Assembly (NCBI GenBank): GCA_004367505.1
Contig: SFCB01000201.1
Location: 1 to 64,000 of the forward strand
Length of the DNA stretch: 64,000 nt
Source of the DNA: Chloroflexi bacterium OHK40
GTDB taxonomy: Bacteria; Chloroflexota; Chloroflexia; Chloroflexales; Chloroflexaceae
Direction of reading: 5' to 3'
Below the pieces are notes generated by a model. The model did not search any database. It was not told the DNA's origin and worked only from the letters and a program-made list of their open reading frames with translations. A program made the translations under genes and the position numbers. The first letter of the stretch is position 1; each line of letters begins with the position of its first letter. This document shows positions 28,463-61,793 of this stretch, piece after piece.

Positions 28463-28544
28463 AGGCCGTTTTGTGGTACGCTCTGATCGGCTGGCAGGAT
28501 GTCGGCGCCTGGAGCGCCACGATCGGGCAGAGGGTTCTGAGCCT

Positions 28545-29876
28545 ATGGATCGTTTTCGAGATGATCTGATCGCACGAATCAGCGAGCGCCGTGCCGTCGT
28601 CGGCGTGATCGGTCTGGGCTACGTGGGGCTCCCGCTGGCGGTCCGGGCCGCTGGCCTGGGCTTCCCGGTGATCGGCTTCGAGGTGAGCGCGGCGAAGGTG
28701 GCGCAGATTAATCGTGGTGAGAGCTATATCGGCGATGTGCCTTCCGAGCAACTTGCCCCGCTGACACGGTGTGGCGCCCTTCTGGCCACCACCGATGCTG
28801 CCCGGATGGCCGAGTGCGACCTACTGGTGATCTGTGTGCCCACCCCGCTCAATGTCACCCGTGACCCCGACCTGAGCTATATCGAGTCGGCCGCCACGAT
28901 GATCGCCGCGAGCCTGCGCCCCGGGCAACTGGTGATCCTGGAGAGTACTACCTACCCGGGCACCACTCGCGAGGTGGTCTGGCCCCGGCTCCAGGGGCGT
29001 GGGCTTGCCCCTGGCACCGAGATCTTTCTGGCCTTCTCTCCCGAGCGCATCGACCCCGGGCAGACTAGCAGCAAAGGTTGGGGGGTGGAAAACACACCCA
29101 AGGTGGTAGGTGGATTGACCCCGGCCTGCGCTGAACTGACGGCCGCCTTCTACCGCCATATCACCAACCAGGTTGTCTGCGTGAGCTCGCCCGATGCCGC
29201 CGAGCTCACCAAGCTCTTCGAGAATATCTTCCGGGCGGTCAATATCGCCCTGGTGAACGAACTGGCACTGCTCTGTGATCGGATGGGGCTCAATGTGTGG
29301 GAGGTGATCGACGCGGCGGCCACAAAGCCATACGGCTTTATGCGCTTTACGCCTGGCCCCGGCCTGGGTGGCCACTGCATTCCGATCGATCCCTTTTACC
29401 TTACCTGGAAGGCCCGCGAGTTAGATCTGACCACCCGATTCATTGAGCTCGCCGGTGAGATCAATACCCAGATGCCACGCCACGTCCACGATCTCGTCGT
29501 GCGGGCGCTCAATCGCCAGAAGAAGGCCCTGAATGGCTCTACCGTGCTGCTGCTTGGCGTGGCCTACAAACCCGATGTGAACGACTACCGCGAGTCGCCC
29601 GCCTTTAAGGTGTATGACCTGCTGGCCGCCGATGGTGCCCGTGTGTTCACCTGCGATCCGCACGTACCTAGCTTCGAACTGCACGATGGCCAGGTGATCA
29701 CGACCATGCCTCTCAGTGATGATCTCCTCGCCAGCTGCGACTGCGCGGTGATTATTACGGACCACCGGGCCTTCGACTACCAGCAGATTGTGACGCTGGC
29801 GCCGGCAGTGGTCGATACGCGCAATGCTACCCGCGCGATCGAAGGCCCCCTTCGCGCGAAGATCACGCTGCTCTAG
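28545..29876 (+). CDS. wbpA: UDP-N-acetylglucosamine 6-dehydrogenase-like nucleotide sugar dehydrogenase (WbpA type)
   Basis: A 443-residue three-domain dehydrogenase. NAD binding is at VIGLGYVGLPLAV. The central domain has SSPDAAELTKLFENIFRAVNIALVNEL, and the catalytic cysteine lies in GPGLGGHCIPIDPFYLTWKARE. The C-terminal domain has GVAYKPDVNDYRESPA. These motifs match WbpA/WecC-type enzymes, which oxidise UDP-GlcNAc (or UDP-ManNAc) twice at C6 to the uronic acid, rather than UDP-glucose dehydrogenase. ATG 28545 follows AGAGGG at about 9 bp. The product would feed HexNAcA residues into the exported glycan. See also the AlgD-like gene at 55540. Confidence 0.85.
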   Translation: MDRFRDDLIARISERRAVVGVIGLGYVGLPLAVRAAGLGFPVIGFEVSAAKVAQINRGESYIGDVPSEQLAPLTRCGALLATTDAARMAECDLLVICVPTPLNVTRDPDLSYIESAATMIAASLRPGQLVILESTTYPGTTREVVWPRLQGRGLAPGTEIFLAFSPERIDPGQTSSKGWGVENTPKVVGGLTPACAELTAAFYRHITNQVVCVSSPDAAELTKLFENIFRAVNIALVNELALLCDRMGLNVWEVIDAAATKPYGFMRFTPGPGLGGHCIPIDPFYLTWKARELDLTTRFIELAGEINTQMPRHVHDLVVRALNRQKKALNGSTVLLLGVAYKPDVNDYRESPAFKVYDLLAADGARVFTCDPHVPSFELHDGQVITTMPLSDDLLASCDCAVIITDHRAFDYQQIVTLAPAVVDTRNATRAIEGPLRAKITLL

Positions 29877-44245: not shown

Positions 44246-46045
44246 ATGGCGTACACACCATCCTGGTTTGCAGCCCAGATCTCCAGCGTCACCGCTGCGC
44301 CGGTGAGCGCCACTGCGGGCCAGCAGGTGGTGGTCGCCGGGCCACTCTGTGTGCGCCTGTCCGTCGCGCCAGGCACCGATGTGGCCGTGAGTCGGGACGG
44401 TGCTGTGACATTGGTGCTCCACGGCGATCTGGTTTCGCCACGGCCAGGTATCACGGCTGTCGATCTGCTTGCATGGTACCTGGCCCGTGGTCTCGCCTGG
44501 GTGGCGGAGCTCGATGGATCCTACGCCCTGCTGATCATCGATGGGCGCGATGGTGCCGTGGTGACCGTTACCGATCGCCTGGGTTCCCGGCGGGTCTATG
44601 GTGGGCGCTGCGACGGTGGCTATGGCCTCGCCTCCTCCCTCGGGCTGCTCCCCTGGGAGGATGAGGCGCTTGATCGGATCGCCCTGGCCGGCTATCTGGT
44701 CAACGGGGTGGTGCACAACAACCGTACGCTCCTGGCCGGCGTGCGCGTGCTCGAACGGGCCTGTGTGCACCGGGTGGGGCCTTCCGGCGTCGAGGCCACG
44801 CCCTACTGGGAGTACGTTTTTGATGATAGCGCCCGTGACACTCCGGTGGAGGAGCTCCAGCGCGAGCTTGCGGCCCTGGTGGTGGAGGCCGTGCGCCGGC
44901 GGCTGCCCGCCAGCGGGGCGCTCTACCTGAGCTTGAGCGCTGGCTACGATGCTACGGGCATTCTCGGCGCGCTGGGATTCGCGCTGCAAGTGCCCGGTGT
45001 GCGGTGCGTCTCCTACTCGCTTGGTGGTGATCACCCCGACGATGATGCGGTGATCAGCCGGGCAATGGCGGCGGTTGCTGGCTATGAGCACCGCGTCATT
45101 CCGAGCTATACCGGCGACCTGTTGCAGGTTCTGGCCCACAATGTGGCTCTGGGCCAGGGGCAGGCCCACTTCTGCGATGAGGTACAGTACTGGACCACGA
45201 TCGGGCCCGAGCTCCAGGCTGAAGCCGGGGCGCTCTTCGTTGGCGATCAAGCCTTCGGCTTTACGACCCCCGCACCTCCGCGCTCATACGCGGAGGTGCT
45301 ACGCAAAGTGTACATCGCCAGCTTCGCCGATCTGCCGGTGCTCGCAGCGTGGCTTCCCGCGCCGCTGTTCCGCGAACTGAGCGAGGCCTGGGGCGCCGAG
45401 CTCGAACGGATCGTTGCCACGTGCCCCGCAAGCGCGCAACTCGAAGACGTAAGGGACTACCTATACCTCGATCAGCGGGTGAGCCACCTTATCCTTCCCT
45501 GGCGCGAGCGATTCGCCGGCACATGGGCGCTCGTGCGCTTCCCGCTGCTCGACCGCACCATCCTCGACTTTAATCGGCGGCTGCCGCCCGAGTTGCGTCG
45601 CAGTAAGGCCCTCTGGAAGGCGACCAGCCGCAGTTCCTACCCTGACCTTTTCACCCAGCCCCGGGGCCGGTCGCGTTATCAACCGGCCTGGTCGGAAGAA
45701 TATGCTCGCGCTGCGCCCGCGCTCGCCGCGTTGATCGATGCCCATGATAGCCCTCTCGACGCACTGATACCGCCTGAACTGCTGCTCGGGCTGCTGGACG
45801 CTCACAGTAACACCCATCGGGCGGCGGGAAGCCTGCCTGCCCGTGCGCGGTGGCTGGCTGAGAAGGCCTTGGGGCGGCTCCGGCGATCGCTGGGGCAGGC
45901 CCCCGGTGCCAGGAGCCAGCCGGAGGGTCCGCAGCATGCCTTACTCCTTCAACGCCTGCTGGTGCTGCGTGAGTACCTGCGTCAGCGGGCTGCTCATGCC
46001 TCTCGACCGGTGGCCTACATCCACGGAGATGCCGATGATGTGTGA
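44246..46045 (+). CDS. Asparagine synthase-like protein without N-terminal nucleophile (1)
   Basis: A 599-residue protein with the AsnB two-domain layout. The N-terminal Ntn-like domain includes VAELDGSYALLIIDGRDGAVVTVTDRLGSRRVYGG, but the mature protein would start with Ala instead of the Cys2 needed for glutamine hydrolysis. The ATP-pyrophosphatase loop is LSLSAGYDATGIL (residues 229-241), a degenerate SGGxDS. The GGDHPDDD and GDQAFGF stretches resemble conserved AsnB blocks. In O-antigen loci AsnB relatives such as WbpS/WbtH make uronic-acid amides. Without the Cys this one would need free ammonia or a different acceptor chemistry, as beta-lactam synthetase does. See 51692 for a second copy. 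Confidence 0.82.
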   Translation: MAYTPSWFAAQISSVTAAPVSATAGQQVVVAGPLCVRLSVAPGTDVAVSRDGAVTLVLHGDLVSPRPGITAVDLLAWYLARGLAWVAELDGSYALLIIDGRDGAVVTVTDRLGSRRVYGGRCDGGYGLASSLGLLPWEDEALDRIALAGYLVNGVVHNNRTLLAGVRVLERACVHRVGPSGVEATPYWEYVFDDSARDTPVEELQRELAALVVEAVRRRLPASGALYLSLSAGYDATGILGALGFALQVPGVRCVSYSLGGDHPDDDAVISRAMAAVAGYEHRVIPSYTGDLLQVLAHNVALGQGQAHFCDEVQYWTTIGPELQAEAGALFVGDQAFGFTTPAPPRSYAEVLRKVYIASFADLPVLAAWLPAPLFRELSEAWGAELERIVATCPASAQLEDVRDYLYLDQRVSHLILPWRERFAGTWALVRFPLLDRTILDFNRRLPPELRRSKALWKATSRSSYPDLFTQPRGRSRYQPAWSEEYARAAPALAALIDAHDSPLDALIPPELLLGLLDAHSNTHRAAGSLPARARWLAEKALGRLRRSLGQAPGARSQPEGPQHALLLQRLLVLREYLRQRAAHASRPVAYIHGDADDV

Positions 46046-46865
46046 ACCCGACGCGCCACCGCGCTTTTCGATCGTCACGATTACGCTGAATAGTGCCGAT
46101 GCTGCCGAGCGCACCGCCCGAAGCGTGCTGGCCCAGCGCGGTGCCACCTTCGAGTATATCGTCAAGGATGGTGGCTCCCACGACGATACGGTGAGCCGCC
46201 TGCGCACCCTCGGGGTGGAGCAGTTGGTGGTCACGCCAGATCGTGGTATCTATGATGCGATGAACCAGGGCCTGGCACGCTGCCGGGGCGACTACGTCTG
46301 CCTGATGAATGCCGGTGACACCTTCGCCGGCCCTGATGTGCTCGCCACGGTGGCGGCCCATCTCGTCCGGCTCGGCGAGCCCGAATTCGCCTACGGCGAC
46401 ATTCGCAGCCTGGTGCGCCATCCGCATCTGCGCGATGAGGATCAGCAGGGCGGGCGGCTCATCCGCTACCCGGAGCGCCTCAGCCGCTTCTGGCTCTACC
46501 GCAAGATGATCTGCCACCAGGCCTGGTTTGTGCGGCGCGAGCTCTATACAGCCGTGCCCTACGATCCAGATTACGCCATTCTGGCTGATTACAGCTACCT
46601 GCTCGATATGCTCCTCCGGCGGCGTGTGCGCTACGCCCACATCCCGGAGGTGGTGGCGATCTTCGATGCGGGCGGCCTCAGCACCAGGCGCAGCGAGCAG
46701 CAGCGGCTGGAGCGCCAGCGGGTTCATCGGGCAACCTTTAGCGCCCCGGAGCGATGGCTGTATGGCGGCCTCTTTCAGAGTATCGGGTGGCTCAACCGGC
46801 GTTTTGTGTACCGCCTCTACCCACTCCTGCCTGAGCCGGTGCGCGGGCGGCTCGGCGGCCTGTAG
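46035..46865 (+). CDS. Glycosyltransferase family 2 (WcaA/WbbD-like)
   Basis: A 276-residue GT-A enzyme: FSIVTITLNSADAAERTARSVLAQ, KDGGSHDDTV, DRGIYDAMNQGLARCRGDYVCLMNAGDTF. The phrase GIYDAMNQGL with GDYVxFLNAGD is typical of colanic-acid and O-antigen transferases that use UDP-GlcNAc or UDP-Gal-like donors. The start at ATG 46035 has GGAG 6 bp upstream and overlaps the AsnB-like gene by 11 bp, so the two are coupled. ATG 46029 in the same frame is an alternative. Confidence 0.88.
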   Translation: MMCEPDAPPRFSIVTITLNSADAAERTARSVLAQRGATFEYIVKDGGSHDDTVSRLRTLGVEQLVVTPDRGIYDAMNQGLARCRGDYVCLMNAGDTFAGPDVLATVAAHLVRLGEPEFAYGDIRSLVRHPHLRDEDQQGGRLIRYPERLSRFWLYRKMICHQAWFVRRELYTAVPYDPDYAILADYSYLLDMLLRRRVRYAHIPEVVAIFDAGGLSTRRSEQQRLERQRVHRATFSAPERWLYGGLFQSIGWLNRRFVYRLYPLLPEPVRGRLGGL

Positions 46866-46895
46866 GCCCGCTAGCCCGCAGCCGACAACCAGACC

Positions 46896-48041
46896 ATGAC
46901 GACCATCGCCCACATCTCAACGGTTCATCAGCCCTTCGACCAGCGGATCTTCCACCGGGAGTGCGCCAGCCTCGCACGGGCGGGCTATCGGACCCACCTG
47001 CTGGTGCAGCTCGCTGAGCCGTATCGGCAGGTGAATGGAGTGCATGTGCACGCCGTCGATCGACCGCAGCCAAACCGGCTGGGGCTGCACCTTGGCCGGC
47101 GTCTGCGCCGGCTGCTGACGACGGCGCAGGCGGCGCGACGTCTGGAGGCTCGGGTGTACCACCTGCACGACCCGGAGCTGATCCCGCTGGGCCTCTGGCT
47201 CAAGGCCCGCACTGGGGCGCGGGTGATCTTCGACTGCCACGAGAATAATACCGCCTATCTGCGGCAGAAACGCTATTTGCATCCGCTCATACGACGCGGG
47301 CTGACGATCAGCATGGCCGGGGCAGAGTGGCTGGCGGGCCGCTGCTTCGACGCCATCGTGACTGCCGACCGGGGCGTGGCCGAGCTCTACCGGCGGCGGT
47401 TCGGCGCCCGGCGGGTGGTCACGGTGCACAATTTTCCGCACCTCGATCTGTTCCTGCGCCAGCCAGCGGGTGATGACAGCGCACGACCGTACGACCTTGT
47501 CTACCACGGGACGATCCCGCGCTATCACCTTGAGGTGGCCTTTGCGGTAGCCGAGGCCCTGCGCCGGCGCGGGGCCCGTGCGCGCTGGCTTTTCTTCGGG
47601 CGCTGCCCCGAACTGGCCTGGGCCCGCGCTGAGGCCACACGGCGTGGCCTGGCCGAGGACTTCACGCTTGATGACCAGCTTATCCCTCACGAGCAGGTGG
47701 CCGCCCGGGTGCTGCAGGGCCGCGTGGGCTTCATCCCGCTGCCGGATCTGCCGAAGTTCCAGCACAATATTCCCACCAAGCTGTTTGAGTTTATGGCTCT
47801 GTCGATGCCGACGGTCCTCAGTGACTTGCCACCCAGCCGGCCCTTCGTTGGGGATGGCGCATGCGCGATTATGGTCCCCCCCGATGATACAGAGGCTTAT
47901 GCCGATGCCATCCTGCGCCTGCTGAACAATCCAGCGCTACGCCACCGCATGGGTGCGGAAGGACGCCGGCGTGTCGAGGGCGAGTTCAACTGGCAGCACG
48001 AGGCGCAGCGTCTGCTCGATCTTTACGCGGAACTGCTATGA
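46896..48041 (+). CDS. Glycosyltransferase family 4
   Basis: A 381-residue GT-B enzyme. AHISTVHQPFDQRIFHRECASL at the start and VYHLHDPELIPLGLWLKAR in the N-terminal domain are typical of GT4 members of EPS loci. The donor domain has PTKLFEFMALSMPTVLSDLPPSRPFV, with a shifted E-x7-E, and VVTVHNFPHLDLF. It should act in the cytoplasm on the lipid-linked chain. The stop overlaps the next ATG (ATGA, 4 bp), so it is coupled to the deacetylase. Confidence 0.86.
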   Translation: MTTIAHISTVHQPFDQRIFHRECASLARAGYRTHLLVQLAEPYRQVNGVHVHAVDRPQPNRLGLHLGRRLRRLLTTAQAARRLEARVYHLHDPELIPLGLWLKARTGARVIFDCHENNTAYLRQKRYLHPLIRRGLTISMAGAEWLAGRCFDAIVTADRGVAELYRRRFGARRVVTVHNFPHLDLFLRQPAGDDSARPYDLVYHGTIPRYHLEVAFAVAEALRRRGARARWLFFGRCPELAWARAEATRRGLAEDFTLDDQLIPHEQVAARVLQGRVGFIPLPDLPKFQHNIPTKLFEFMALSMPTVLSDLPPSRPFVGDGACAIMVPPDDTEAYADAILRLLNNPALRHRMGAEGRRRVEGEFNWQHEAQRLLDLYAELL

Positions 48042-48952
48042 GCACCAAACGTCTGATCGTGACCGCCGACGACTACGGCCTCTGCCCACCGGTGAATGAG
48101 GCGATCGACGAGTGCCTGGCGGCTGGCACACTACGAGCTACCTGTGTGATGACGAATATGCCCGAAGCGGCAGCCGCCCTCACCTTCCGCCAGCGCTTCC
48201 CCAGCGCCTCGCTCGGACTCCACTGGACGCTCAGCCTGGGCCGGCCGGTGTTGCCACCAGGACAGGTGGCGAGCCTGGTTGGCCCCGACGGCGAGTTTTT
48301 GCCCCAGCCGGAATTGCGCCGGCGGATTATGGCCCGCCGTTACAACCCAGCCCATGTGCGCGCCGAACTGACGGCCCAGTACGAGCGCTTTCGTGAGTTG
48401 GCCGGCGAGCCAGACTTCTGGAATACGCACCAGAATGTACACGTGGCCCCCGGTATGTTCGAGCTCTGCAGCGATCTGGCGTGGGAGCTGGGTGTGCGGG
48501 CTATGCGCGCCCACCGGCGCATCACGGTGCCACGGCGTGGCAATGCGACCACCTACAACATGCGCCACCCGCTCTACTGGCTCAAAGCACGCCTGATTGA
48601 CCGGTGGACGGTCCGGCTTGAGCGCCAGGGCGTGCTTCTGCCCGATGGGATCGTGCATCTGCCGGGCTACCAGGAGGGCAAAGCGGCGATCGAAGCGGTG
48701 GTTGGCCGGCTCCCGTGGCGCTCGCTGCGCCGCGCGGCTGAGTGGATTATTCATCCGTCAACCAGTGCCGACGACAAACTACTCGGTCGGCTGACTGCCT
48801 CTCGGGTGCGGGAGTATGCCGTGTTCCGCGACCCGCAGCTCCGGCAACGGCTGGCCGCTCGTGGGGTGGAGGCCGTGGGCTTCGAGACCCTCGGCGCGGT
48901 GGCGCGACCCGAAGTGACACACGGAAACGACGCTCATGGTCATCACGTATAG
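48038..48952 (+). CDS. ChbG/HpnK (YdjC) family deacetylase
   Basis: A 304-residue carbohydrate deacetylase-like enzyme. LIVTADDYGLCPPVNEAI carries the metal Asp pair, ASLGLHWTLS the His, FWNTHQNVHVAPG the HxxxH-type site and EWIIHPS the C-terminal His. YdjC/ChbG removes an acetyl group from chitooligosaccharides and HpnK acts on hopanoid GlcNAc. The locus also has a CE4 deacetylase (31987), so two amine-unmasking steps, or one on precursor and one on polymer, can be proposed. ATGA coupling with the upstream GT4 and 17-bp overlap with the polymerase-like gene downstream. Confidence 0.86.
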   Translation: MSTKRLIVTADDYGLCPPVNEAIDECLAAGTLRATCVMTNMPEAAAALTFRQRFPSASLGLHWTLSLGRPVLPPGQVASLVGPDGEFLPQPELRRRIMARRYNPAHVRAELTAQYERFRELAGEPDFWNTHQNVHVAPGMFELCSDLAWELGVRAMRAHRRITVPRRGNATTYNMRHPLYWLKARLIDRWTVRLERQGVLLPDGIVHLPGYQEGKAAIEAVVGRLPWRSLRRAAEWIIHPSTSADDKLLGRLTASRVREYAVFRDPQLRQRLAARGVEAVGFETLGAVARPEVTHGNDAHGHHV

Positions 48953-50276
48953 CCAGATCTACCCCGGCCCGATCTGGACAGCCCTGCTCGTTCTGCTGTT
49001 TCTGTACACCATCCTGCGGGGTCGGCCCGAGTGGGCGCTGGGGATGTTCTTTGCGATGTCCGGGTGGGGCCGCAACCTCTGGGTTGGCCCGATGCTCTAC
49101 CTCTACGCCCTGCTCGCCACGGCATACGCCGCGGCCTTTGTGGATCTGCAGGTGCGCCTGCGCCGTGGTGAACAGGTTCGATTTTTTCCTCAGCACGACC
49201 GAAGCATTCTCGTTTTGCTCGGCTGCTGGTGGTTCTGGATGCTGCTGCTCATTCAGCTGTTCATGCCCGATAATGGGCCGGCCCTGCGGCGCAATCTGGT
49301 GCTGATCATCATTGCTGGCATTCCAGCACTGTTTCTCTTCGGCCAGGATCCACGGCGGGTGCGCGGCTTTGCCCTCGCCTATATCGGCTCGGCGATCGCC
49401 GGCGGCTGGATCGCCCTCACTGCCTACGGGATTCCGATCACGGCGCTGCTCACCGACCCGAGCCTCGGCAGCTACGGGCTCTCGAACCTGGGTATTCCGA
49501 ACTACCACGCGATCGCGTGGACCTTCGGCTGCGCACTGATTATGGTGATGGCGCTCTACCTGCAGGCGCGTAGCCTGTTCTCCCTCGCTGGCTACATGCT
49601 CCTCGCTGTGCTGTGTGTGCACTTCTTGATGCTCTCCCTCTCGCGCCAATCGATGGCCGCAAGCATCATCTGCCTTATGCTCTTTGCGATCTGGGCGCTC
49701 TTCAGCCGGACAACCCCCAAGCTCCGTGTGCTCACCCTGCTCGTCGGGGTGATCGGGATGGTCGTGATCCTCTATCAGGTCTCGCCGAGTCTGGTGGTGC
49801 GCCAGAATGAGAGCGGCCTGCTGGAGTCCTTCGACCTGGTGGGGGAGCGCAGCCAGTACTGGCTCTATGGCTGGGCCGTCTTCGTCGAGGCGCCGCTGAC
49901 GGGCAGCGGGATGTCGACAACGTATACCCATAACCTCGCGCTAGGAACCCTCGCCGAGCAGGGCCTGGTCGGTGGCTTCTTCCTGGTGGCTTACCTCGCC
50001 TTTGTCCTGCGTCAGGGGCAGGCGATCCTCTACGGACACGGTGACCCGCAACGGGCTCCGTGGCAGGTGGCTTTCTTTCTGATCGTGCTCTTCTTCCTGA
50101 TCCATAGTATGGCCTCGGGTACAGCGACCAATGGCCGCCACCTCTACTGGGCCGGGCTGTTGCTCTGGTGCCAGTCCGTGCTTGTGCAGCCGGCGCCGGT
50201 GCCGGTCCTGCCTGTGCCAACGCGCCTGATCGCCCGCCCCGCATCGTTCGTGGCGGCGCACCAGGCCGCCGAGTAG
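48936..50276 (+). CDS. O-antigen ligase/polymerase-like membrane protein (Wzy/WaaL family)
   Basis: A 446-residue polytopic protein with about 11-12 hydrophobic segments and the family's extracytoplasmic loop before the last helices. LMLSLSRQSMAASIICLMLF and the WaaL/Wzy C-terminal signature YTHNLALGTLAEQGLVGGFFLVAYL are seen. These proteins polymerise repeat units or join them to an acceptor at the outer face of the membrane. As an ABC exporter is also encoded, ligation to a lipid or protein acceptor is as plausible as block polymerisation. It overlaps the deacetylase gene by 17 bp. Confidence 0.87.
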   Translation: MVITYSQIYPGPIWTALLVLLFLYTILRGRPEWALGMFFAMSGWGRNLWVGPMLYLYALLATAYAAAFVDLQVRLRRGEQVRFFPQHDRSILVLLGCWWFWMLLLIQLFMPDNGPALRRNLVLIIIAGIPALFLFGQDPRRVRGFALAYIGSAIAGGWIALTAYGIPITALLTDPSLGSYGLSNLGIPNYHAIAWTFGCALIMVMALYLQARSLFSLAGYMLLAVLCVHFLMLSLSRQSMAASIICLMLFAIWALFSRTTPKLRVLTLLVGVIGMVVILYQVSPSLVVRQNESGLLESFDLVGERSQYWLYGWAVFVEAPLTGSGMSTTYTHNLALGTLAEQGLVGGFFLVAYLAFVLRQGQAILYGHGDPQRAPWQVAFFLIVLFFLIHSMASGTATNGRHLYWAGLLLWCQSVLVQPAPVPVLPVPTRLIARPASFVAAHQAAE

Positions 50277-50286
50277 AAGGCTCACC

Positions 50287-51681
50287 TTGCCCATGGCCGT
50301 TCCGTTGATTCGCCGCCTCCCAACCCAGCAGCAACTCTTCGACCTCGCCCCGCCTCCGGTCAGGCGCGTGCTGGTGAATCTGGAAGCTGCCCGCCGTGAA
50401 TGGTTCCGGCGTCACGGCGATTACCGGGCCCTTGTGGCCCGCCACGATCCGGCCTTCTACCGGCGCCCCCTGGCCGAGCAGGAGGCTTACCAGCTCGCCG
50501 AACTGCGGCGGCTCCTCGAAGGTGCTCGCCGCGATGTGCCACACTATCGGGCTTCGTTGCCGCCGGACCCGCTCGCAACCCTGGCCGATTTGCGGAGCCT
50601 CCCCACCCTCGAGAAGGGCATGTTGCGCCGGGACCCCTTCGCCTTTGTGAGCGAGCGGCTTCCTCGCCGCCAGCTCTGGGCCCGCAAAACGAGCGGCTCG
50701 ACGGGAACCCCCCTCACGTTCCACCTGGATCGTGAGGCGACCCGGCATCAACAGGCGGCCGCCGATGCCATGCTCGCCGCCTACGGGTGCCCCTTCGGCG
50801 AGCGCCGGGCCCGATTCTCCGGTGCCTATGTGGCGCCGTACGCCAGAACCACTCCGCCCTTCTGGATCTGGATCGATAGCTACCGCCAGCTCCAGTGCTC
50901 GGCCTATCACCTCGCTCCGCCGTTCTTCGACCACTACCTTCAGGCTATCCGCGCGGCGCGGGTGGCCTATGGTACCGGCTACCCCAGCGCCTGGTACCTG
51001 CTGGCGTGCCACGTGCTCGAACGGGGCGGGGCGCCGCCCGGGTTACGGGCGATTATCACCGATAGCGAGGGCGTGAGCCTCGACCAGCAGGCGGTGATCG
51101 AACACGCCTTCGGTTGCCCCGTCTACCAGACCTACGGCACTGGTGAGATAGGGCAGGTCGCCTGGCAGTGTCGTGAGCGGCGCTACCATGTGCTTACCCG
51201 CATTGTTGTGATCGAACTGCTCGACGCAGCGGGCAACCCTGTGGCGCCTGGCGAAGCGGGAGAGGTGGTGGCAACCAGCCTGGCGGGTGCCAACACTCCG
51301 TTTATCCGCTACCGGACCGGCGATCTGGCAATTGCCGCCACTGACCCGTGCCCCTGCGGGCTGCAAAGCCCCGCCCTGTTGAGCATCGAGGGCCGGCTCG
51401 ACGACTACATCCAGACACCCGACGGGCGTACGGTGGGGCGCCTGAGCCACGTGACGAAGCCTGGCAGAGGGATCCGTGAGAGCCAGATTGCCCAGGTCGC
51501 CCGCGATCAGGTCGTCATCCGGGTGGTGCCAGACGCCGACTTTGATCCTGCGTCGATGGCGGCCGTGGTGGCGGCGGCCCACCGCTACCTTGGCGCCGGG
51601 ATGCAGGTGCGCTGGGAGCGCGTTGAGCGGTTGCCGCGCACCAGGGCTGGCAAGCTGCGGCACGTGGTTCGCGAATTGTAA
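50287..51681 (+). CDS. Phenylacetate-CoA ligase-like adenylate-forming enzyme (CapK/PaaK family)
   Basis: A 464-residue ANL-superfamily protein. The ATP loop RKTSGSTGTPLTFHLDRE, VYQTYGTGEIGQVAWQC at the acyl-adenylate site, FIRYRTGDLA and the Cys pair PCPCGLQSP with GRLDDYIQTPDGR match CapK/PaaK. In capsule loci CapK homologues are thought to activate carboxylic acids for transfer to the polymer. A TTG at 50287 has AGAAGG at 6 bp and an in-frame ATG at 50293. I kept the TTG. It lies between the polymerase-like gene and the second AsnB-like gene with about 10-bp gaps, so it may work with the latter on the same carboxyl substrate (inference). Confidence 0.86.
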   Translation: MPMAVPLIRRLPTQQQLFDLAPPPVRRVLVNLEAARREWFRRHGDYRALVARHDPAFYRRPLAEQEAYQLAELRRLLEGARRDVPHYRASLPPDPLATLADLRSLPTLEKGMLRRDPFAFVSERLPRRQLWARKTSGSTGTPLTFHLDREATRHQQAAADAMLAAYGCPFGERRARFSGAYVAPYARTTPPFWIWIDSYRQLQCSAYHLAPPFFDHYLQAIRAARVAYGTGYPSAWYLLACHVLERGGAPPGLRAIITDSEGVSLDQQAVIEHAFGCPVYQTYGTGEIGQVAWQCRERRYHVLTRIVVIELLDAAGNPVAPGEAGEVVATSLAGANTPFIRYRTGDLAIAATDPCPCGLQSPALLSIEGRLDDYIQTPDGRTVGRLSHVTKPGRGIRESQIAQVARDQVVIRVVPDADFDPASMAAVVAAAHRYLGAGMQVRWERVERLPRTRAGKLRHVVREL

Positions 51682-51691
51682 GGGCCGTTGC

Positions 51692-53518
51692 ATGGATCTG
51701 CGCGAGGCGCCCCCCCAATCATTTTGCAGCTTCCTGGCCGCGTTTGGCCCCGCGATCGATGAGGAGGCCTTTGAACGTGCGGCCGCCCGGTTGCCCCATT
51801 ATCGCCCGACACCCACTACCCTCACGCTCGACGGGTTGCGACTCTGCTGGTATGCACCCGAGCGCAACCCGCTCCATCGCTGGGTACTCCACCGCGCCGG
51901 GCAGGTGCTCCTGCTCGTCCAGGGCGACTTCTACGGCCCGCTTGACGAAGGCGCGCTCGCTGCGACGATCGCCGGTGGGCAGATCGACCGGCAGGCCCTC
52001 ACGACAGCCCTGGCCAGGCTGCGCGGCGTCTTCAACGGCTTCGTCATCAACCAGGCCGACCACTCGTGCCTCGCCTTCGTTGACCGGCTTGGCTTTACTT
52101 TCCTCTACCATTGTGCAACGGGCCCCACAACCTGGCTCTCCTCGTCGCTGTGGCCGCTGCTGCGCCTGAGGCCGCAGGCCCCGCTCGCGCCCGAGGCCGT
52201 CGAGGACATGGTGCTGTTCGGCTTCCCGACCGGGAACCGCACCATCCTCCGGGATGTGTTTACCATTCAGCCAGGCCGCATCGTCGCGATGCGTGCTGGC
52301 CATAGCAGCGCCGTACGGTACGTCCCGCCGATCGATCGGCGCCTGTGCAGGCTCGATCTGGCCCTGGACGAGTTTCGCGGCGCATTCGGCTCGCACTTCG
52401 ACTATGTGCGCAGCCTGATCCCGGTCGACCGTTTTGTGACGACCCTGACGGGCGGCCACGATACGCGCGTCATCCTTAATGCCATGCTTGCCAACGCGAT
52501 CGTGCCGACATGCCTTACCGGCACCGATCGCGGTATGACCGGCGATGTTCGCCGCAGCGCACAGATCGCCAGGATTGCCGGCGCGCCTCTGCAAATTGCT
52601 AACTATGGCGAGGCTGATCCCGCGCTCCACGCCGATGCCTTTTTTATGAGCGAGGGTACGGGTACCGGGCTGTGGATGGCCCGGCTCAGCGAGGTGGCCC
52701 GGCTCCACGGCGACGTGGCCTACTTTGGATTCTCCGGCGATATTCTCTCGGGCAGCGGCACGGTTACACTCGGCCTGCTGCGCGGCGATGACGACGCCGA
52801 TGCCCTGGTGCGCAAAGCCTGCCTCTTCAACTACGAATACCGGACCGACCCGGAGACGCTCTGCCGGACCCTCTTCGGGCATGGCTTCGACACGGTGCTC
52901 GAACGCTATGCCGCAACGTTTGCGCCATACCAGGGGTTGGACCGCTACGGCATGTTTGTACAACAGCGGATCGACGACCGGAACTTCCGGCGCATCGGCG
53001 GCTTTGCCCACGCGGCCCAGACGGCTCTGCCAGCCGTGCACTTCTTTCACGACCCGCGCATCGCCGAGCTCTACCTCAGCCTCGATGAAGGGTTGCTGCT
53101 CGGCCGCAAGCTCCACTGCCGCCTCTGCTACGATGCCATTCCCGCGATGGCCTGGGTTCCGGGCAATCCCTGGCATGTGCCGCTCTGGCTGGAGCCGGCG
53201 GCGCTGCACCACGTGCGCGCCGCCGGCAAGTTCGTCCAGCGGCTGCGGCGCGCACCCGCCCGCGCGGTGGCATCTTCACCACCCGATGCGCGGCTGCAGG
53301 CGGCGCTGGCCATGCACGAGGGGCTCGACGCCGTAGATCTCGACGCGCTCCGCGCCCTGGCCGCCCAGGAGGCCGGCTCGCCGCGCGCTCACCTGCTCGC
53401 CCTGCGCGTCGCCACCCTGGCCCGGCTGCTGCGCTTTGCCCGCGGCCAGCCCATCGTGGAGGAACAGCATGCCCGTCTCTTTGCGCGCCGCGAGCAGGGC
53501 GCCGTCGTCGCACGCTGA
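51692..53518 (+). CDS. Asparagine synthase-like protein without N-terminal nucleophile (2)
   Basis: A 608-residue AsnB-like protein. The N-terminal half (FNGFVINQADHSCLAFVDRLGFTFLYH, LLRLRPQAPL) resembles the glutaminase fold but begins MDLREAPP, so it lacks Cys2. The ATP-binding loop is VTTLTGGHDTRVIL (TGGHDT at residues 253-258), a closer match to SGGxDS than in the protein at 44246. Many such proteins in polysaccharide loci are annotated as asparagine synthase and are proposed amidases or ligases of uronic acid carboxyls. AAGGG lies 7 bp before ATG 51692. The tracked start at 51476 overlaps the CapK-like gene in another frame. Confidence 0.82.
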   Translation: MDLREAPPQSFCSFLAAFGPAIDEEAFERAAARLPHYRPTPTTLTLDGLRLCWYAPERNPLHRWVLHRAGQVLLLVQGDFYGPLDEGALAATIAGGQIDRQALTTALARLRGVFNGFVINQADHSCLAFVDRLGFTFLYHCATGPTTWLSSSLWPLLRLRPQAPLAPEAVEDMVLFGFPTGNRTILRDVFTIQPGRIVAMRAGHSSAVRYVPPIDRRLCRLDLALDEFRGAFGSHFDYVRSLIPVDRFVTTLTGGHDTRVILNAMLANAIVPTCLTGTDRGMTGDVRRSAQIARIAGAPLQIANYGEADPALHADAFFMSEGTGTGLWMARLSEVARLHGDVAYFGFSGDILSGSGTVTLGLLRGDDDADALVRKACLFNYEYRTDPETLCRTLFGHGFDTVLERYAATFAPYQGLDRYGMFVQQRIDDRNFRRIGGFAHAAQTALPAVHFFHDPRIAELYLSLDEGLLLGRKLHCRLCYDAIPAMAWVPGNPWHVPLWLEPAALHHVRAAGKFVQRLRRAPARAVASSPPDARLQAALAMHEGLDAVDLDALRALAAQEAGSPRAHLLALRVATLARLLRFARGQPIVEEQHARLFARREQGAVVAR

Positions 53519-55539: not shown

Positions 55540-56847
55540 ATGCAGATCAGTATTTTTGGCCTTGGCTATGTGGGAACGGTCACTGCGGCCTGCCTGGCCG
55601 CTCGGGGCCACCGAGTCATCGGGGTGGATGTGGCCGCAGGCAAGGTTGAACTGCTCAACAAGGGCCGCTCCCCGATTGTTGAGCCCGGCCTCGACGCCCT
55701 CGTGGCGGATGTGCGTGCCCGGGAGCTGATCGAGGCCACCACCGATGTTGCCGCAGCCGTGGCCGCCACCGATCTCGCCCTGATCTGCGTCGGCACACCG
55801 TCGCTGGAGCGGGGCGGCCTAGATGTTCAGTATGTCGAGCGGGTCATGGACCAGATCGGCGCCGCCCTGATGGGCCGCGCCCGCCCCTTCCTGATTGTGC
55901 TGCGCAGTACGGTGCTGCCGGGGACGACGCGCCAGTGCGTGCTACCAACCCTTGAGCGGGCCTCCGGGCGGCCCCTCGGCGATGGCTACGAAGTGCTCTA
56001 TCACCCTGAGTTTCTCCGCGAGGGAAGCTCCCTGCGCGACTTTGACCAGCCGGCCTTGATCGTCATCGGTGAAGCGCGCCCTGGCACCGCCGGCCCCTTG
56101 ATCGACCTCTACGGGGGCGTCGAGGCGCCCCGTTTCGTCACGAGCCTCGAAGGCGCCGAGATGATCAAGTATGCCAATAACGCCTTTCACGCCGTGAAGA
56201 TCACCTTCGCCAACGAGATCGGCCAGTTGTGCCAGAGCGTTGGGGTCGATAGTCACGAGGTGATGGAGATGTTTGTGGCCGACCGGCAGTTGAATATCTC
56301 CCCGGCGTACCTGCGGCCGGGCTTCGCCTTTGGCGGCTCCTGCCTGCCGAAGGATCTGCGCGCCCTCACGCGCTTCGCTCGCCACCAGGATCTCAGCCTG
56401 CCGCTGCTAGAGAGCGCCCTACCGAGCAATGGCCTGCAGATCGAGCGGGCGTTGCAGCGGGTTGAAGCCCACCGCCGCCAGCGTATTGGCATGGTAGGCC
56501 TGGCGTTTAAGCCGCACACCGACGATCTGCGCGAGAGCCCGCTGGTGATCCTGGCCGAGCGGCTGCTCGGCAAAGGGTACGCACTCAGTATCTACGACCC
56601 TCAGGTGCAGCTGGCGGCCCTGGTGGGCGGTAACCTCGCCTATGTGCAAGAACGCCTGCCCCACCTCTCACGCCTCTTGTTGCCCGGTCTGGCCGATCTC
56701 GCGGCGTGCGAACTGATCGTGATCGGCCACCCCCTGGCCGAGCCCGCCGTGATTGAGCACTGGCTCACGAGTGGTATTCAGGTGCTGGACCTTGTTGGGC
56801 GTGGCACGCGTCTGGCCCATCCGAACTACGAGGGACTCTACTGGTAA
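55540..56847 (+). CDS. GDP-mannose 6-dehydrogenase-like nucleotide sugar dehydrogenase (AlgD type)
   Basis: A 435-residue enzyme. ISIFGLGYVGTVTAACLAARGHRVIGVDV, KSPIVEPGL-like start, CVGTPS, RSTVLPGTTR, HPEFLREGSSLRDFDQPALIVIGE and YLRPGFAFGGSCLPKDLRALT with the catalytic Cys match the AlgD/Udg family, and the last stretch is closer to AlgD than to UDP-glucose dehydrogenase. The product would be GDP-mannuronic acid (AlgD) or a UDP-uronate. I cannot exclude UDP-glucose as substrate. With the WbpA-like enzyme at 28545 this gives two separate sources of uronic acids in the locus. Confidence 0.82.
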   Translation: MQISIFGLGYVGTVTAACLAARGHRVIGVDVAAGKVELLNKGRSPIVEPGLDALVADVRARELIEATTDVAAAVAATDLALICVGTPSLERGGLDVQYVERVMDQIGAALMGRARPFLIVLRSTVLPGTTRQCVLPTLERASGRPLGDGYEVLYHPEFLREGSSLRDFDQPALIVIGEARPGTAGPLIDLYGGVEAPRFVTSLEGAEMIKYANNAFHAVKITFANEIGQLCQSVGVDSHEVMEMFVADRQLNISPAYLRPGFAFGGSCLPKDLRALTRFARHQDLSLPLLESALPSNGLQIERALQRVEAHRRQRIGMVGLAFKPHTDDLRESPLVILAERLLGKGYALSIYDPQVQLAALVGGNLAYVQERLPHLSRLLLPGLADLAACELIVIGHPLAEPAVIEHWLTSGIQVLDLVGRGTRLAHPNYEGLYW

Positions 56848-56850
56848 GCC

Positions 56851-58137
56851 ATGCACATTCTCTACCTCCATCAATATTTCACGACCCGCAATGGCGTGGG
56901 CGGTACGCGCTCTTACGAGTTTGCGCGCTATCTGCTCAGCCAGGGCCACAAAGTTACCATGGTCACCGCCGCTGATCCGCAGCTGCCCTGGCAGCGGGGC
57001 CTGCTCCGCCACCGGCAGGTGGACGGCATCGATGTGGTGGAGCTACGGGCTGGCTCGTCCGACTACCAGAGCGGCACGGCTGTGGGTTATGGCCAGCGCA
57101 TCGTTGCCTTCGTGCTCTTCGCCCTGGCGAGTGTCGTTGCCGTGCTACGCGCTCGCCGCCCCGATCTGGTCTTTGCAACGTCGACCCCGCTCACGATCGG
57201 TATCCCCGGCGCGATCGCCAGCGCCTGGCACCGGGTTCCGATGGTCTTCGAGGTGCGCGATCTCTGGCCAGAAGCGCCCATCCAGATGGGCGCCCTGCGC
57301 CATCCGGCGGCTATTCTGTTGGCGCGCTGGCTCGAGCGGGCGATCTACCGTCGCGCCGCCCACGTGGTGGCCCTCTCCCCGGGCATGCGCGCTGGGGTGA
57401 TCGACGCAGGGGTGCCGCCCGAGCGGGTGACGGTCATTCCGAACGCCTCGGATCTCGATCTCTTCTCGCCTGAGATCGATGGTAGCGCCTTCCGGGAGAC
57501 TTACGGCCTCGTGGGGAAGTTCGTCTGCTTATATTTTGGCACCATGGGCGAGGCGAATGATCTCTTTCAGGTGGTGCGAGCGGCCCGGGTGCTGCACGAG
57601 CGGGGCGAGGAGCGGATCGTCTTCGTGCTCCACGGCAGAGGTCGCCAGCGGCCTGAACTGGAAGCCTTCGTGAGCGCCCATGGTCTGCGCAATGTCGTCT
57701 TTTCATCGGCCCTTCCCGACAAGTCGGCGGTGGCGCGCCTGGTAGCGGCCGCCGATGTGGGAATGACCATCTATAAGAATCTGCCCATCCTGGCGACCTG
57801 TTCGCCCAATAAGCTCTTTGATACGTTAGCTGCCGGGCGTGCCGTGCTGGTCAATACCCCGGGCTGGCTGCGGGAGCTTGTCCTCACCCATGAGTGCGGC
57901 GTCGCGGTGCGCCCCGACGACCCCTACGATCTGGCCGATAGCGTGACGGCCCTTTGCAACGATCCTGAGCGGGTTGTCCGTTACGGGCGCAATGCCCGCC
58001 GTCTGGCCGAGCAGTCCTTCGACCGGCGCGCCCTCGGTGCCCAGTTGCTAGCGCTGTTCGAGCAGGTGGTGTTGGCCTCCCGCCAGGTCGCCCAATCCCC
58101 ATCTTCGACAACGGCGCCGCGCGAAATGGGACGATAG
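56851..58137 (+). CDS. Glycosyltransferase family 4 (WbuB-like)
   Basis: A 428-residue GT-B enzyme. MHILYLHQYFTTRNGVGGTRSYEFARYL and VPMVFEVRDLWPEAPIQMGAL are typical of the WbuB/WcaI-type branch, and the donor domain has VTVIPNASDLDLFSPE, LYFGTMGEAND and CSPNKLFDTLAAGRAVLVNTPGW. It has one hydrophobic stretch (IVAFVLFALASVVAVL) that may attach it to the membrane. The spacing of 3 bp to the preceding dehydrogenase gene suggests co-transcription. It is the last gene before a strong terminator. WbuB-like enzymes add N-acetyl-fucosamine-type sugars, but the donor here is unknown. Confidence 0.87.
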   Translation: MHILYLHQYFTTRNGVGGTRSYEFARYLLSQGHKVTMVTAADPQLPWQRGLLRHRQVDGIDVVELRAGSSDYQSGTAVGYGQRIVAFVLFALASVVAVLRARRPDLVFATSTPLTIGIPGAIASAWHRVPMVFEVRDLWPEAPIQMGALRHPAAILLARWLERAIYRRAAHVVALSPGMRAGVIDAGVPPERVTVIPNASDLDLFSPEIDGSAFRETYGLVGKFVCLYFGTMGEANDLFQVVRAARVLHERGEERIVFVLHGRGRQRPELEAFVSAHGLRNVVFSSALPDKSAVARLVAAADVGMTIYKNLPILATCSPNKLFDTLAAGRAVLVNTPGWLRELVLTHECGVAVRPDDPYDLADSVTALCNDPERVVRYGRNARRLAEQSFDRRALGAQLLALFEQVVLASRQVAQSPSSTTAPREMGR

Positions 58138-58598: not shown

Positions 58599-58801
58599 GC
58601 TGGCTAGTACCGCATGTCCATTCATATGTGCGCGTTGCGAGGCAGTGTAGCCGGGCCTTTTTCTCGCACGCGGCAACATCTGGCCGCTCGTTGGGCAGCT
58701 GTGTCGCCGTCCCATTCGGGCATACGCCGGTCATACCACACGGAGGTGGCCATACCGCAGCGCACGGCCACAGCAGGCGTGGCGAAGTAGTGGGGTTGTG
58801 G

Positions 58802-58859
58802 GAACTGAGCCCACGTGGGGCCGTTACCGCATGCGTGGCCGTACGGTGGTTCTCGGTTC
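58802..58859 (+). promoter_or_regulatory. Structured leader segment before the phosphoglycosyl transferase gene
   Basis: GAACTGAG (58802-58809) pairs with CTCGGTTC (58852-58859), one G-T pair, enclosing the palindrome CCCACGTGGG and other GC-rich repeats. It is 77 bp from the start codon. No known riboswitch recognised. Confidence 0.3.
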
Positions 58860-58935
58860 TGCCGGGTTGCTCATTTCACCTCAGGGCTTGCGGGTTGTGA
58901 AGGCGTGCAGCCAGACGATCTGGCTGGAGGGTGTC

Positions 58936-59583
58936 ATGTATCGCCGCGTTGGGAAACGCTGTCTTGATCTGCTTATCGCGGGGGCAGGGCTGATCTTACT
59001 CCTTCCGCTGATCCTCTGCATCGCGCTACTGGTCCGGATCTACCTCGGGCCGGGGGTTATCTTCAGCCAGGTGCGGCCGGGCCTCCATGGGCGGCCCTTC
59101 AGGCTATACAAGTTTCGCACGATGACCGACGCGCGTACTCCGAGCGGCGAGTTGCGCCCCGATGCGGAGCGGCTCACCTCGTTTGGCAAGCTGCTCCGAA
59201 GCACCAGCCTGGACGAGCTCCCCGGCCTGATTAACGTCATCCGGGGGGAGATGAGCCTGGTCGGGCCGCGCCCACTGCTCATGGCCTATCTGGAGCGCTA
59301 CTCGCCGCAGCAGCGTCGGCGCCACGAGGTGCTCCCGGGAATCACCGGCTGGGCGCAGGTCAACGGGCGCAACGCGATCAGCTGGGAGGAGCGCTTCGCG
59401 CTGGACGTATGGTATGTCGAGCACTGCTCGCTGTGGGTCGATCTGAAGATCCTCGGCCTGACTCTGGTCAAAGTGCTCCGGCGCGCGGATATCACTCAGC
59501 ATGGCCATGCGACGGTCGAGGAGTTCCGTGGCGCGCCGGGGCTCTATGAAGCCCACCGCCATGAGGCAGAGTCGGGCGCATAG
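58936..59583 (+). CDS. Undecaprenyl-phosphate phosphoglycosyl transferase (PglC/bacterial sugar transferase)
   Basis: A 215-residue monotopic phosphoglycosyl transferase. The N-terminal re-entrant helix (YRRVGKRCLDLLIAGAGLILLLPLILCIALLV) is followed by IFSQVRPGLHGRPFRLYKFRTM, LLRSTSLDELPGLINVIRGEMSLVGPRPLL with the catalytic Asp-Glu pair, and GITGWAQVNGRN. It transfers a sugar phosphate from UDP-sugar to undecaprenyl phosphate and so starts each glycan. GGAGGG lies 4 bp before ATG 58936. The tracked start at 58798 is wrong. The small size and genes downstream point to a PglC-type enzyme using a diNAc-bacillosamine-like donor (inference). It could equally start the EPS with a hexose. Confidence 0.9.
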   Translation: MYRRVGKRCLDLLIAGAGLILLLPLILCIALLVRIYLGPGVIFSQVRPGLHGRPFRLYKFRTMTDARTPSGELRPDAERLTSFGKLLRSTSLDELPGLINVIRGEMSLVGPRPLLMAYLERYSPQQRRRHEVLPGITGWAQVNGRNAISWEERFALDVWYVEHCSLWVDLKILGLTLVKVLRRADITQHGHATVEEFRGAPGLYEAHRHEAESGA

Positions 59584-59624
59584 TGGCTGCCTGGCCCCGT
59601 GGTTGGGGAATAAGCTGAGGCGGT

Positions 59625-60260
59625 ATGCAACGGGTACTCATCGTCGGGGCGGGCGGGCATGCCCAGGTTGTGGCCGACATCCTTCTCCTACTCGCGGCCA
59701 GCGGTGACTGGATCCCCGTAGGTTACCTCGACGATAACCCCGAGCTGCGAGGTCGCTCGCTGCTCGGGTTGCCTGTGCTCGGCCCCCTGTACGAGCGCCC
59801 GGCGTTCCCCCACGACGCGCTGGTGATCGCCGTCGGGCGGAATGATCTGCGGCAGCGGCTTTACGGCATGCTGCGCGCCGAAGGCGCTCACTTTGCGACG
59901 CTTGTCCACCCTCGGGCGACCATTGCCCACGATGTGGTGATCGGTCCAGGCTCAGTGATCTGCGCTGGCGCAGTGGTCGGCCCAGGCGCCCGTCTTGGCT
60001 GCAATGTAATCATCAATACGGCCGCCACGGTTGACCATCACAACCGGATCGGCGACCACTGCCATATCGCGCCGGGCGCTCACCTCGGCGGCGATGTGCA
60101 GATCGGCGATGGCTGTCTCGTGGGCCTGGGTGCCCTGATAATGCCTCAGCGCTCGGTCGGCGCCTGGAGCATCGTTGGAGCCGGGGCGCTGGTGCACCGC
60201 AGCCTCCCTTCCGGCGTGACCGCCGTTGGTACGCCGGCCCGCGTCATCCGTGAGCACTGA
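59625..60260 (+). CDS. NeuD/PglD-family sugar O/N-acetyltransferase
   Basis: A 211-residue protein. An N-terminal Rossmann-like UDP-sugar domain (RVLIVGAGGHAQVVADILL, GYLDDNPEL) is followed by a left-handed beta-helix with hexapeptide repeats (VVIGPGSVICAGAVVGPGARLG). The catalytic-base His lies in VDHHNRIGDHCHIAPGAHLGG at residues 138-139. The end GVTAVGTPARVIREH matches PglD. It should acetylate the C4 amine of UDP-2-acetamido-4-amino-sugar made by the aminotransferase encoded 15 bp downstream, giving UDP-diNAcBac. NeuD-type sialic-acid O-acetylation is the alternative. Confidence 0.88.
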   Translation: MQRVLIVGAGGHAQVVADILLLLAASGDWIPVGYLDDNPELRGRSLLGLPVLGPLYERPAFPHDALVIAVGRNDLRQRLYGMLRAEGAHFATLVHPRATIAHDVVIGPGSVICAGAVVGPGARLGCNVIINTAATVDHHNRIGDHCHIAPGAHLGGDVQIGDGCLVGLGALIMPQRSVGAWSIVGAGALVHRSLPSGVTAVGTPARVIREH

Positions 60261-60274
60261 AGGAACCCGGTACG

Positions 60275-61450
60275 ATGCGCATTCCCATGTCGAGCCCCGA
60301 CATTACCGAGGCCGAGTTGGCCGCGGTGACCGCCGTTCTCCGCACCCCGACACTCAGTATCGGCCCGCAAATTGTGGCCTTTGAGCAAGCCTGCGCCGCC
60401 TATGTTGGCGCCCGCCACGCCGCTGGTGTCAATTCTGGGACGAGTGGCCTGCACCTCTGCATGATCGCCGCCGGGGTTGGGCCCGGCGATCTGGTGCTTA
60501 CTTCGTCGTTCTCGTTTATCGCGTCGGCGAATGCTGTGCTCTACGAGCGCGCCATCCCCGTCTTTGTGGACGTGGACCGCGCCACTGGGAACCTCAGCCC
60601 CGCCCTGGTGGCCGAGGCGGCCCACGATCTCGCAACGGGTGGCACGGCGGCGGCGCGCTGGCTGCCCCGCGGGGTGGACGCTGCTGCCGTGGGCCAGCTG
60701 CGGGCGATCCTGCCGGTGCACGCCTTTGGCCAGCCTGCCGACATGGATCCGATCATGGAAACTGCCCGCACCTACGGCCTTGCAGTGATCGAGGACGCCT
60801 GCGAAGCGATCGGGGCAGAGTACCGTGGGCGACGGGCCGGAACTATCGGGGATGCCGGAGTCTTCGCATTCTATCCGAACAAGCAGATGACGACCGGCGA
60901 GGGTGGGATGATCGTCTGCGATCGGGACGATTGGCTCCCGCTCTTCCGCTCGCTCCGGAACCAGGGCCGCGATGTGTTCGACAGCTGGCTGAACCACACT
61001 CGGCTCGGCTATAACTACCGGCTCGACGAGTTGAGTGCCGCCCTGGGCCTGGCTCAGCTGCGGCGGATCGACGAGCTCCTGGCCAAGCGTGACCGTGTGG
61101 CGCGCTGGTACCACGAGCGTCTCGCCGGGTTGGAGCTCGTTGAGCGGCCATGGGTGGCCGAGAGTACCACCCGCATGAGCTGGTTCGTCTATGTGGTCCG
61201 AATCCGGCCGCCCGCCGACCGCGATCAGGTGATGGCACGGCTTGCGGAAGTGGGCATCCCGAGCCGGCCTTACTTCACCCCAATCCACCTCCAGCCCTTC
61301 TACCGCGATCGCTTCGGCTATCGCCGGGCGGATCTGCCGGTGACCGAACAACTCGGCGACTGTTCGCTCGCCCTGCCCTTCTCCAGCGTCATGCAGGAGT
61401 CCCAGGTTGACGAAGTCTGCGCACAGCTTCGTCGGGCCGTTGCCGCTTGA
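60275..61450 (+). CDS. DegT/DnrJ/EryC1/StrS sugar aminotransferase (PglE-like)
   Basis: A 391-residue PLP enzyme of the nucleotide-sugar aminotransferase family. IPMSSPDITEAELAAVTAVL, HAAGVNSGTSGLHLCMIAAG (the GT-S phosphate site), VIEDACEAIGAEYRGRRAGTIGDAGVFAFYPNKQMTTGEGG with PLP lysine Lys203, and LGYNYRLDELSAALGLAQL are all present. It should aminate a UDP-4-keto-6-deoxy sugar from the PglF-like dehydratase, with glutamate as amino donor. A roughly 25-residue insert near residue 115 (about 110-145) precedes the HAFGQPADM loop. Close spacing with the PglD-like gene supports a joint pathway. Confidence 0.88.
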   Translation: MRIPMSSPDITEAELAAVTAVLRTPTLSIGPQIVAFEQACAAYVGARHAAGVNSGTSGLHLCMIAAGVGPGDLVLTSSFSFIASANAVLYERAIPVFVDVDRATGNLSPALVAEAAHDLATGGTAAARWLPRGVDAAAVGQLRAILPVHAFGQPADMDPIMETARTYGLAVIEDACEAIGAEYRGRRAGTIGDAGVFAFYPNKQMTTGEGGMIVCDRDDWLPLFRSLRNQGRDVFDSWLNHTRLGYNYRLDELSAALGLAQLRRIDELLAKRDRVARWYHERLAGLELVERPWVAESTTRMSWFVYVVRIRPPADRDQVMARLAEVGIPSRPYFTPIHLQPFYRDRFGYRRADLPVTEQLGDCSLALPFSSVMQESQVDEVCAQLRRAVAA

Positions 61451-61626
61451 GCCGCCATCCCGCCGTCTAGCGCGCGTCGCATCTCGTCGTTGCAGCTGAG
61501 TGACGATTCATCTTTCAGGGGCTGGAAAGCTCCTGGCACGGCGTTTTCAGGCGCTGGGATGGGCTCGCTGGTGTTGGCGCCAGGGGTGAAGATGACAAAT
61601 CGCTGACAGTTTCGTTATCGCCGGAC

Positions 61627-61653
61627 CAGGTGAATCTCTGATTCTGTCACCTG
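61627..61653. promoter_or_regulatory. Inverted repeat CAGGTGA-N13-TCACCTG upstream of the dehydratase gene
   Basis: Perfect 7-bp half-sites whose centres are 20 bp apart, about two helical turns. A near direct repeat GATTC-TG-TCACC / GATTC-ATA-TCACC runs through 61640-61667. The 343-bp gap 61451-61793 holds no gene. A CATAGTAG further down may be the -10 element. These features suggest separate control of the dehydratase gene. Confidence 0.4.
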
Positions 61654-61793
61654 CGATTCATATCACCATAGTAGAGTGTCGCAACCGGGGGAAGAACGAA
61701 CACAACATGGCCGAAAGGTCGACAGCGGTGACACCTGCACGTCAGCGCCGGCTATGGTAGTTGGCGTGCCACTAAACCCGAAAGGAACGGGCC

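Follow-up and report, generated by a model that had tools for sequence, protein, structure and literature searches.

Two AsnB-fold proteins without the glutaminase cysteine in a polysaccharide cluster of Chloroflexi bacterium OHK40: an indication of a misannotated branch of AsnB-like proteins

Genes of the AsnB type occur frequently in the polysaccharide clusters of bacteria, where annotation as asparagine synthase is routine. Two of them, called here AsnB1 and AsnB2, are located in a stretch of 64,000 nucleotides of Chloroflexi bacterium OHK40 (GCA_004367505.1, contig SFCB01000201.1, positions 1 to 64,000; "the window" below), which is part of a 78.9 kb contig of a 6.9 Mb genome, in a family that includes Chloroflexus-like genomes. 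The question raised by this locus is what such proteins do when the glutaminase cysteine is missing, and whether they form one uronamide or amide-linked glycan pathway with a CapK-like adenylating enzyme and two nucleotide-sugar dehydrogenases of the same cluster, as an earlier note on this DNA had proposed. The observation behind that proposal is sound and the pathway is over-reaching; the locus is a pointer to a widespread branch of AsnB-like proteins without glutamine use and without the usual catalytic lysine, for which the asparagine synthase annotation is wrong. The two genes are as follows:

44246..46045, + strand: AsnB1, AsnB-fold protein without Cys2, 599 aa, loop SAGYDAT, GD Asp present
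51692..53518, + strand: AsnB2, highly divergent AsnB-fold protein without Cys2, 608 aa, loop TGGHDTR, Cys at residue 12

Both open reading frames (ORFs) are intact coding genes with GC3 values of 0.75 and 0.81, the same as their neighbours, and on this ground a frame error or a non-coding ORF was rejected. The absence of Cys2 holds in both, residue 2 being Ala in AsnB1 and Asp in AsnB2, and a hidden upstream Met-Cys start was rejected because the upstream genes end just 49 bp before AsnB1 and 10 bp before AsnB2 and leave no room for it. The degenerate SAGYDA loop described in the earlier note is present in AsnB1, with D235 as the loop Asp, for which the AsnB2 counterpart is D257. AsnB1 scores above the curated cut-off of PF00733. 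For AsnB2 the sequence gave a weak GATase_7 match (E 0.001) and no PF00733 match, and it was recognised as AsnB-like by profile-profile comparison and by its predicted fold. On TIGR01536 (asparagine synthetase B), with a cut-off of 267 bits, AsnB1 reached 55.8 and AsnB2 17.0.

Close relatives were not found for either protein. With AsnB1 alone as query, 84,980 genomes gave no relatives, genomes of the family gave distant matches only (no more than 31% identical, along part of the length), and plasmids gave only distant AsnB genes; AsnB2 had no match in 40 other genomes of the family and none among plasmids and PDB sequences. The genome scan with an alignment of three distant relatives from the phylum search as query resulted in 20 loci (L086-L105 in our labels). 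These belong to a subfamily that Chloroflexota, Planctomycetota and Pseudoalteromonas carry in polysaccharide clusters, mostly glycosyltransferase/ABC-exporter clusters, and its proteins, in the scan loci and in loci collected earlier, typically start with MPG[LIV]xG and have the loop SGGxD[SAG]R. Presumably they stand in databases under names such as asparagine synthase-related protein, and a search of open-licence papers turned up none on AsnB-like proteins of this glutaminase-less kind in such clusters. One member is carried by the cultured Bellilinea caldifistulae (L098:9995-11845), so a direct test is feasible.

The residues of 18 aligned subfamily members were compared with those of 14 canonical glutaminase-containing AsnB proteins, the roles of residues such as K449 being those of E. 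coli AsnB. Cys as the nucleophile, the oxyanion Asn and Lys at position K449 (mature numbering) are each present in 14/14 canonical proteins; in the subfamily Cys and Asn are found in 0/18 and Lys in at most 2/18. The Ser-x-Gly-x-Asp loop and a second-site Asp/Glu are both kept in all 18, across several phyla. E348 was not used as a diagnostic residue, being variable among canonical members also. The loss of the glutaminase function claimed for the two proteins thus extends to the whole subfamily, and the SGGxD-type loop with its second Asp suggests that the ATP-pyrophosphatase-type site is kept, also as claimed.

AsnB1 and AsnB2 share with the L086-L105 proteins the absence of Cys2, an SGGxD-type loop (SAGYD in AsnB1), the second Asp, the polysaccharide context and a long profile match (AsnB1 E 1e-24 over 421 columns, AsnB2 E 4e-14 over 434 columns), whereas the match to the canonical set is shorter and poorer (253 and 245 columns). 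They differ as outliers at 16-27% identity without the MPG start, and in AsnB1 by the SAGYDA loop. In a quick tree all 23 glutaminase-less rows fall on one side of a branch with SH-aLRT support of 93. The catalytic Lys is not aligned in either protein, and one alignment has Arg there in AsnB1.

AlphaFold models made from 23-row alignments (pTM 0.77 for AsnB1, 0.72 for AsnB2) both have the two-domain AsnB fold, Ntn plus ATP-pyrophosphatase. The best PDB matches in Foldseek were the hydroxyamidotransferase TsnB9, beta-lactam synthetase, carbapenam synthetase and AsnB, with E from 7e-20 to 7e-11. TsnB9 (7ylz) is the top match for both (TM 0.54-0.68) at only 15-18% identity; its substrate is trichostatic acid and its donor is glutamic acid gamma-monohydroxamate (PMC5719088). 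The models have low confidence at AsnB1 474-560, the C-terminal part where the Lys is expected, and at the AsnB2 N-terminus (residues 1-62, pLDDT <50), and the loss of the Lys therefore rests on the alignments. Beta-lactam and carbapenam synthetases, which use a catalytic Lys and a Tyr-Glu dyad, likewise have the AsnB fold without a working glutaminase. AsnB1 and AsnB2 have no beta-lactam context, and no counterpart of that Lys or dyad was seen in them where the residues could be compared.

Both genes are indeed set among polysaccharide genes. A Wzy-type (slime-)polysaccharide cluster extends over about 26-64 kb of the window and contains the two AsnB-like genes, the CapK-like gene and both nucleotide-sugar dehydrogenases, along with an ABC exporter, glycosyltransferases of families 2, 4 and 61, a Wzz/tyrosine kinase, a Wzy-like protein, a YdjC-like deacetylase and a PglC/D/E/F-like set. 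An Rfam scan of the window gave no RNA families. The genes of the cluster that matter below are:

28536..29876, + strand: nucleotide-sugar dehydrogenase, UDP-HexNAc type, motif GGHCIPIDP, over the TIGR03026 cut-off
46029..46865, + strand: GT2f, family 2 glycosyltransferase, start approximate; in relatives directly 3' of GT2e (or GT4a/Wzy)
46896..48041, + strand: GT4b, family 4 glycosyltransferase, a neighbour conserved in relatives
48038..48952, + strand: YdjC-like carbohydrate deacetylase, conserved neighbour of CapK
48936..50276, + strand: Wzy_C/O-antigen-ligase-like membrane protein
50287..51681, + strand: CapK/PaaK-like adenylate-forming enzyme, core cluster gene in relatives
55540..56847, + strand: UGD, nucleotide-sugar dehydrogenase, UDP-glucose/GDP-mannose type, motif GGSCLPKD, over the TIGR03026 cut-off
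56851..58137, + strand: GT4c, family 4 glycosyltransferase, directly 3' of CapK in seven Chloroflexus-like genomes
58798..63755, + strand: PglC-, PglD-, PglE- and PglF-like set (sugar transferase, acetyltransferase, aminotransferase, dehydratase), also in locus L063

From this material AsnB1 and AsnB2 are read as glutamine-independent, ATP-dependent polymer-tailoring enzymes, a reading to which we give an even chance on the basis of sequence and predicted fold. They would bind ATP-Mg via the SGGxD-type loop and the second Asp, and the ATP would be used for tailoring the repeat unit of the polymer without glutamine, most plausibly by coupling ammonia or a small amine to the carboxylate of a sugar. 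The gene order in Anaerolineae, where a sulfotransferase-like gene adjoins the AsnB-like gene in most subfamily loci and the conserved order is sulfotransferase-like, glutaminase-less AsnB-like, GT4, GT4, supports a polymer-tailoring role without naming the reaction. Several points weigh against it. The Lys of canonical AsnB is absent and the proteins may not adenylate anything; it is kept by the lasso cyclase of this same genome, and its absence from the whole subfamily makes it less safe to carry AsnB or beta-lactam-synthetase chemistry over directly. The AsnB1 loop has two changes, Gly to Ala and Ser to Ala, each of which is seen singly in other family members (LSAGIDS in L082, SGGLDAR in L100 and L102). 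The two proteins appear to be strongly diverged subfamily members, and this placement is tentative because their branches are long (2.3 for AsnB1, 3.65 for AsnB2).

How the AsnB-like genes relate to CapK was judged from synteny. The CapK-like protein scores 32 bits on PF00501 (cut-off 29.9), is below all NCBIfam cut-offs, and keeps the adenylation motifs TSGSTGTP, YGTGE, YRTGD and RTRAGK, which it has in common with the PaaK/CapK-like ligase 4r1l (E 5e-17), from which it differs by its polysaccharide context. It does lie directly 5' of AsnB2, as the earlier note had observed. Eight genomes of the family also have it, at 67-71% identity, in clusters that lack AsnB-like genes. The order GT2d, Wzy, GT2e, GT2f, GT4b, YdjC, CapK, GT4c is shared by seven Chloroflexus-like genomes; in genome G061 it runs on through DUF218, PMT-like, GT4c and PglC/D/E/F, and in G268 UGD adjoins a more distant CapK-like protein. 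The syntenic regions L056-L064 contain no AsnB-family ORF, and at both places where the window has an AsnB-like gene the neighbouring frames of the relatives abut or overlap, small gaps excepted. Because this conserved cluster has no AsnB at either place, both AsnB-like genes count as accessory here, whether this lineage acquired them or they were lost in others, and because CapK is syntenic and conserved without them, it is a core gene independent of them. CapK would act as a separate adenylating enzyme with GT4b, YdjC and GT4c regardless of AsnB2, their adjacency being a consequence of where AsnB2 is located. The idea of one pathway for CapK and the AsnB-like proteins finds no support in this evidence, and an obligate CapK-AsnB2 pair is rejected. 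A UGD homologue (69% identical) likewise stands in L064 without an AsnB-like gene.

Other functions for the two proteins were weighed against the tailoring reading. They could be pseudoenzymes in which the AsnB fold serves as a non-catalytic partner or regulator of glycosyltransferases; the subfamily-wide loss of the glutaminase residues and the catalytic Lys, the degenerate AsnB1 loop and the very long branches all speak for this, and the loop and second acidic residue kept in all 18 members of several phyla suggest instead a nucleotide-dependent function, which leaves it unlikely yet a serious contender. That AsnB2 is still a glutaminase, its Cys12 exposed by removal of an 11-residue propeptide, is very improbable. 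Short propeptides are known from certain class II amidotransferases, Bacillus PurF among them, and in one alignment Cys12 (QSFCSFLAAFG) falls under Cys2 of E. coli AsnB; in other alignments it lies elsewhere, Gln occupies the position of the oxyanion Asn in AsnB2, and the N-terminus is not resolved in the model. Peptide and lactam cyclases, of the type of lasso cyclases or beta-lactam synthetases, share the fold, and AsnB1 matches a lasso cyclase model with E 1e-8, but the score on NF033535 is 34.1 bits against a cut-off of 525, no lasso B1/B2 genes were seen in the ORF list of the cluster, and the true lasso cyclase is elsewhere in the genome; this identity was rejected and we give it next to no credence. 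The true cyclase scores 757 bits, in a lasso peptide locus on another contig (L083:3283-10554, G000 contig 39), where its neighbours, named by eye, are B1- and B2-like genes, an HPr-kinase-like protein and an ABC transporter.

The pathway readings start from the same genes. Both dehydrogenases of the cluster are of the uronate-forming type, as the earlier note had said, and in a uronamide pathway they would make UDP-uronic acids which the AsnB-like proteins amidate with free ammonia, in the manner of a Cys-less WbpS. WbpS/WbqG-type proteins, including WbpS of Porphyromonas and Helicobacter, are AsnB-like sugar amidotransferases required for uronamides (PMC7468200, PMC6025236), and ammonia is accepted in place of glutamine by one AsnB-like enzyme (PMC13060819). 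WbpS/WbqG and the XrtA/PEP-CTERM amidotransferase of TIGR03108 resemble our proteins in having the AsnB fold and belonging to sugar-tailoring clusters; AsnB1 and AsnB2 are, however, far under the TIGR03108 cut-off (49.6 and 24.7 bits, cut-off 816.9), their glutaminase residues and Lys are gone, and dehydrogenase and AsnB-like genes are not linked across relatives, a nucleotide-sugar dehydrogenase lying within 10 kb in just 2/20 glutaminase-less subfamily loci. The uronamide pathway is rather doubtful on this balance, and it overlaps partly with the tailoring reading. A two-step module, in which CapK activates an acid and AsnB2 hands it to an amine, draws on the 10 bp between the genes and on the presence of an AsnB-like gene near a CapK-like gene in L065 and L137 also. 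This nearness occurs in 2/32 other CapK-like loci examined, each with two glutaminase-containing AsnB genes, and with CapK conserved in the eight genomes without AsnB2 the module is improbable. That the AsnB-fold proteins without glutaminase and Lys form an undescribed class of polysaccharide-tailoring enzymes, which would link the carboxylate of a sugar with some amine besides ammonia or carry out another ATP-dependent step, two paralogues acting here on one polymer, is likewise a rather doubtful proposition.

Two AsnB-like genes in one cluster had been called unusual, and the phylum does not bear this out: pairs within 10 kb occur in at least 10 of the 95 genomes with a match (for example G022:C20, G070:C8, G062:C237, G180:C129, G198:C15 and G045:C13). 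Pairs are found also in loci L087, L100, L101, L102 and L065, and those in L100, L101 and L102 consist of one canonical and one glutaminase-less member.

Some further AsnB-like proteins were recorded. Still more divergent AsnB-fold proteins share clusters with glutaminase-less members at L103:17129-18634 and L087:19283-21148. Another Cys-less AsnB-like protein, with the full synthetase motifs SGGIDSS, GEGGD and PKSG, is found in genomes of the same family (L072:8579-10237, L073:290-2017, L074:11331-13046), away from homologues of the polysaccharide genes of the window.

In Anaerolineae, polysaccharide clusters with a glutaminase-less AsnB also contain an amino-acid adenylation domain (L091, L093, L095, L096, L097, L098 and L105; for example L096:16604-21851 and L098:16384-21845). 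A DSL-type carrier protein lies 3' of this domain in L096, L097, L098 and L105, a prolyl-carrier dehydrogenase-like protein (PigA/RedW; 376-462 bits, short of the cut-offs of 500 and 650) beside it in L091, L093, L095, L096 and L105, and a FAD halogenase-like protein with a PF01757 acyltransferase is present in L096-L098. This set suggests a decoration of the polysaccharide with pyrrole-carboxylate, perhaps halogenated.

Outside the polysaccharide cluster, at 14299-17553 of the window, one protein combines an ammonium transporter, a PAS domain, a histidine kinase and two receiver domains.

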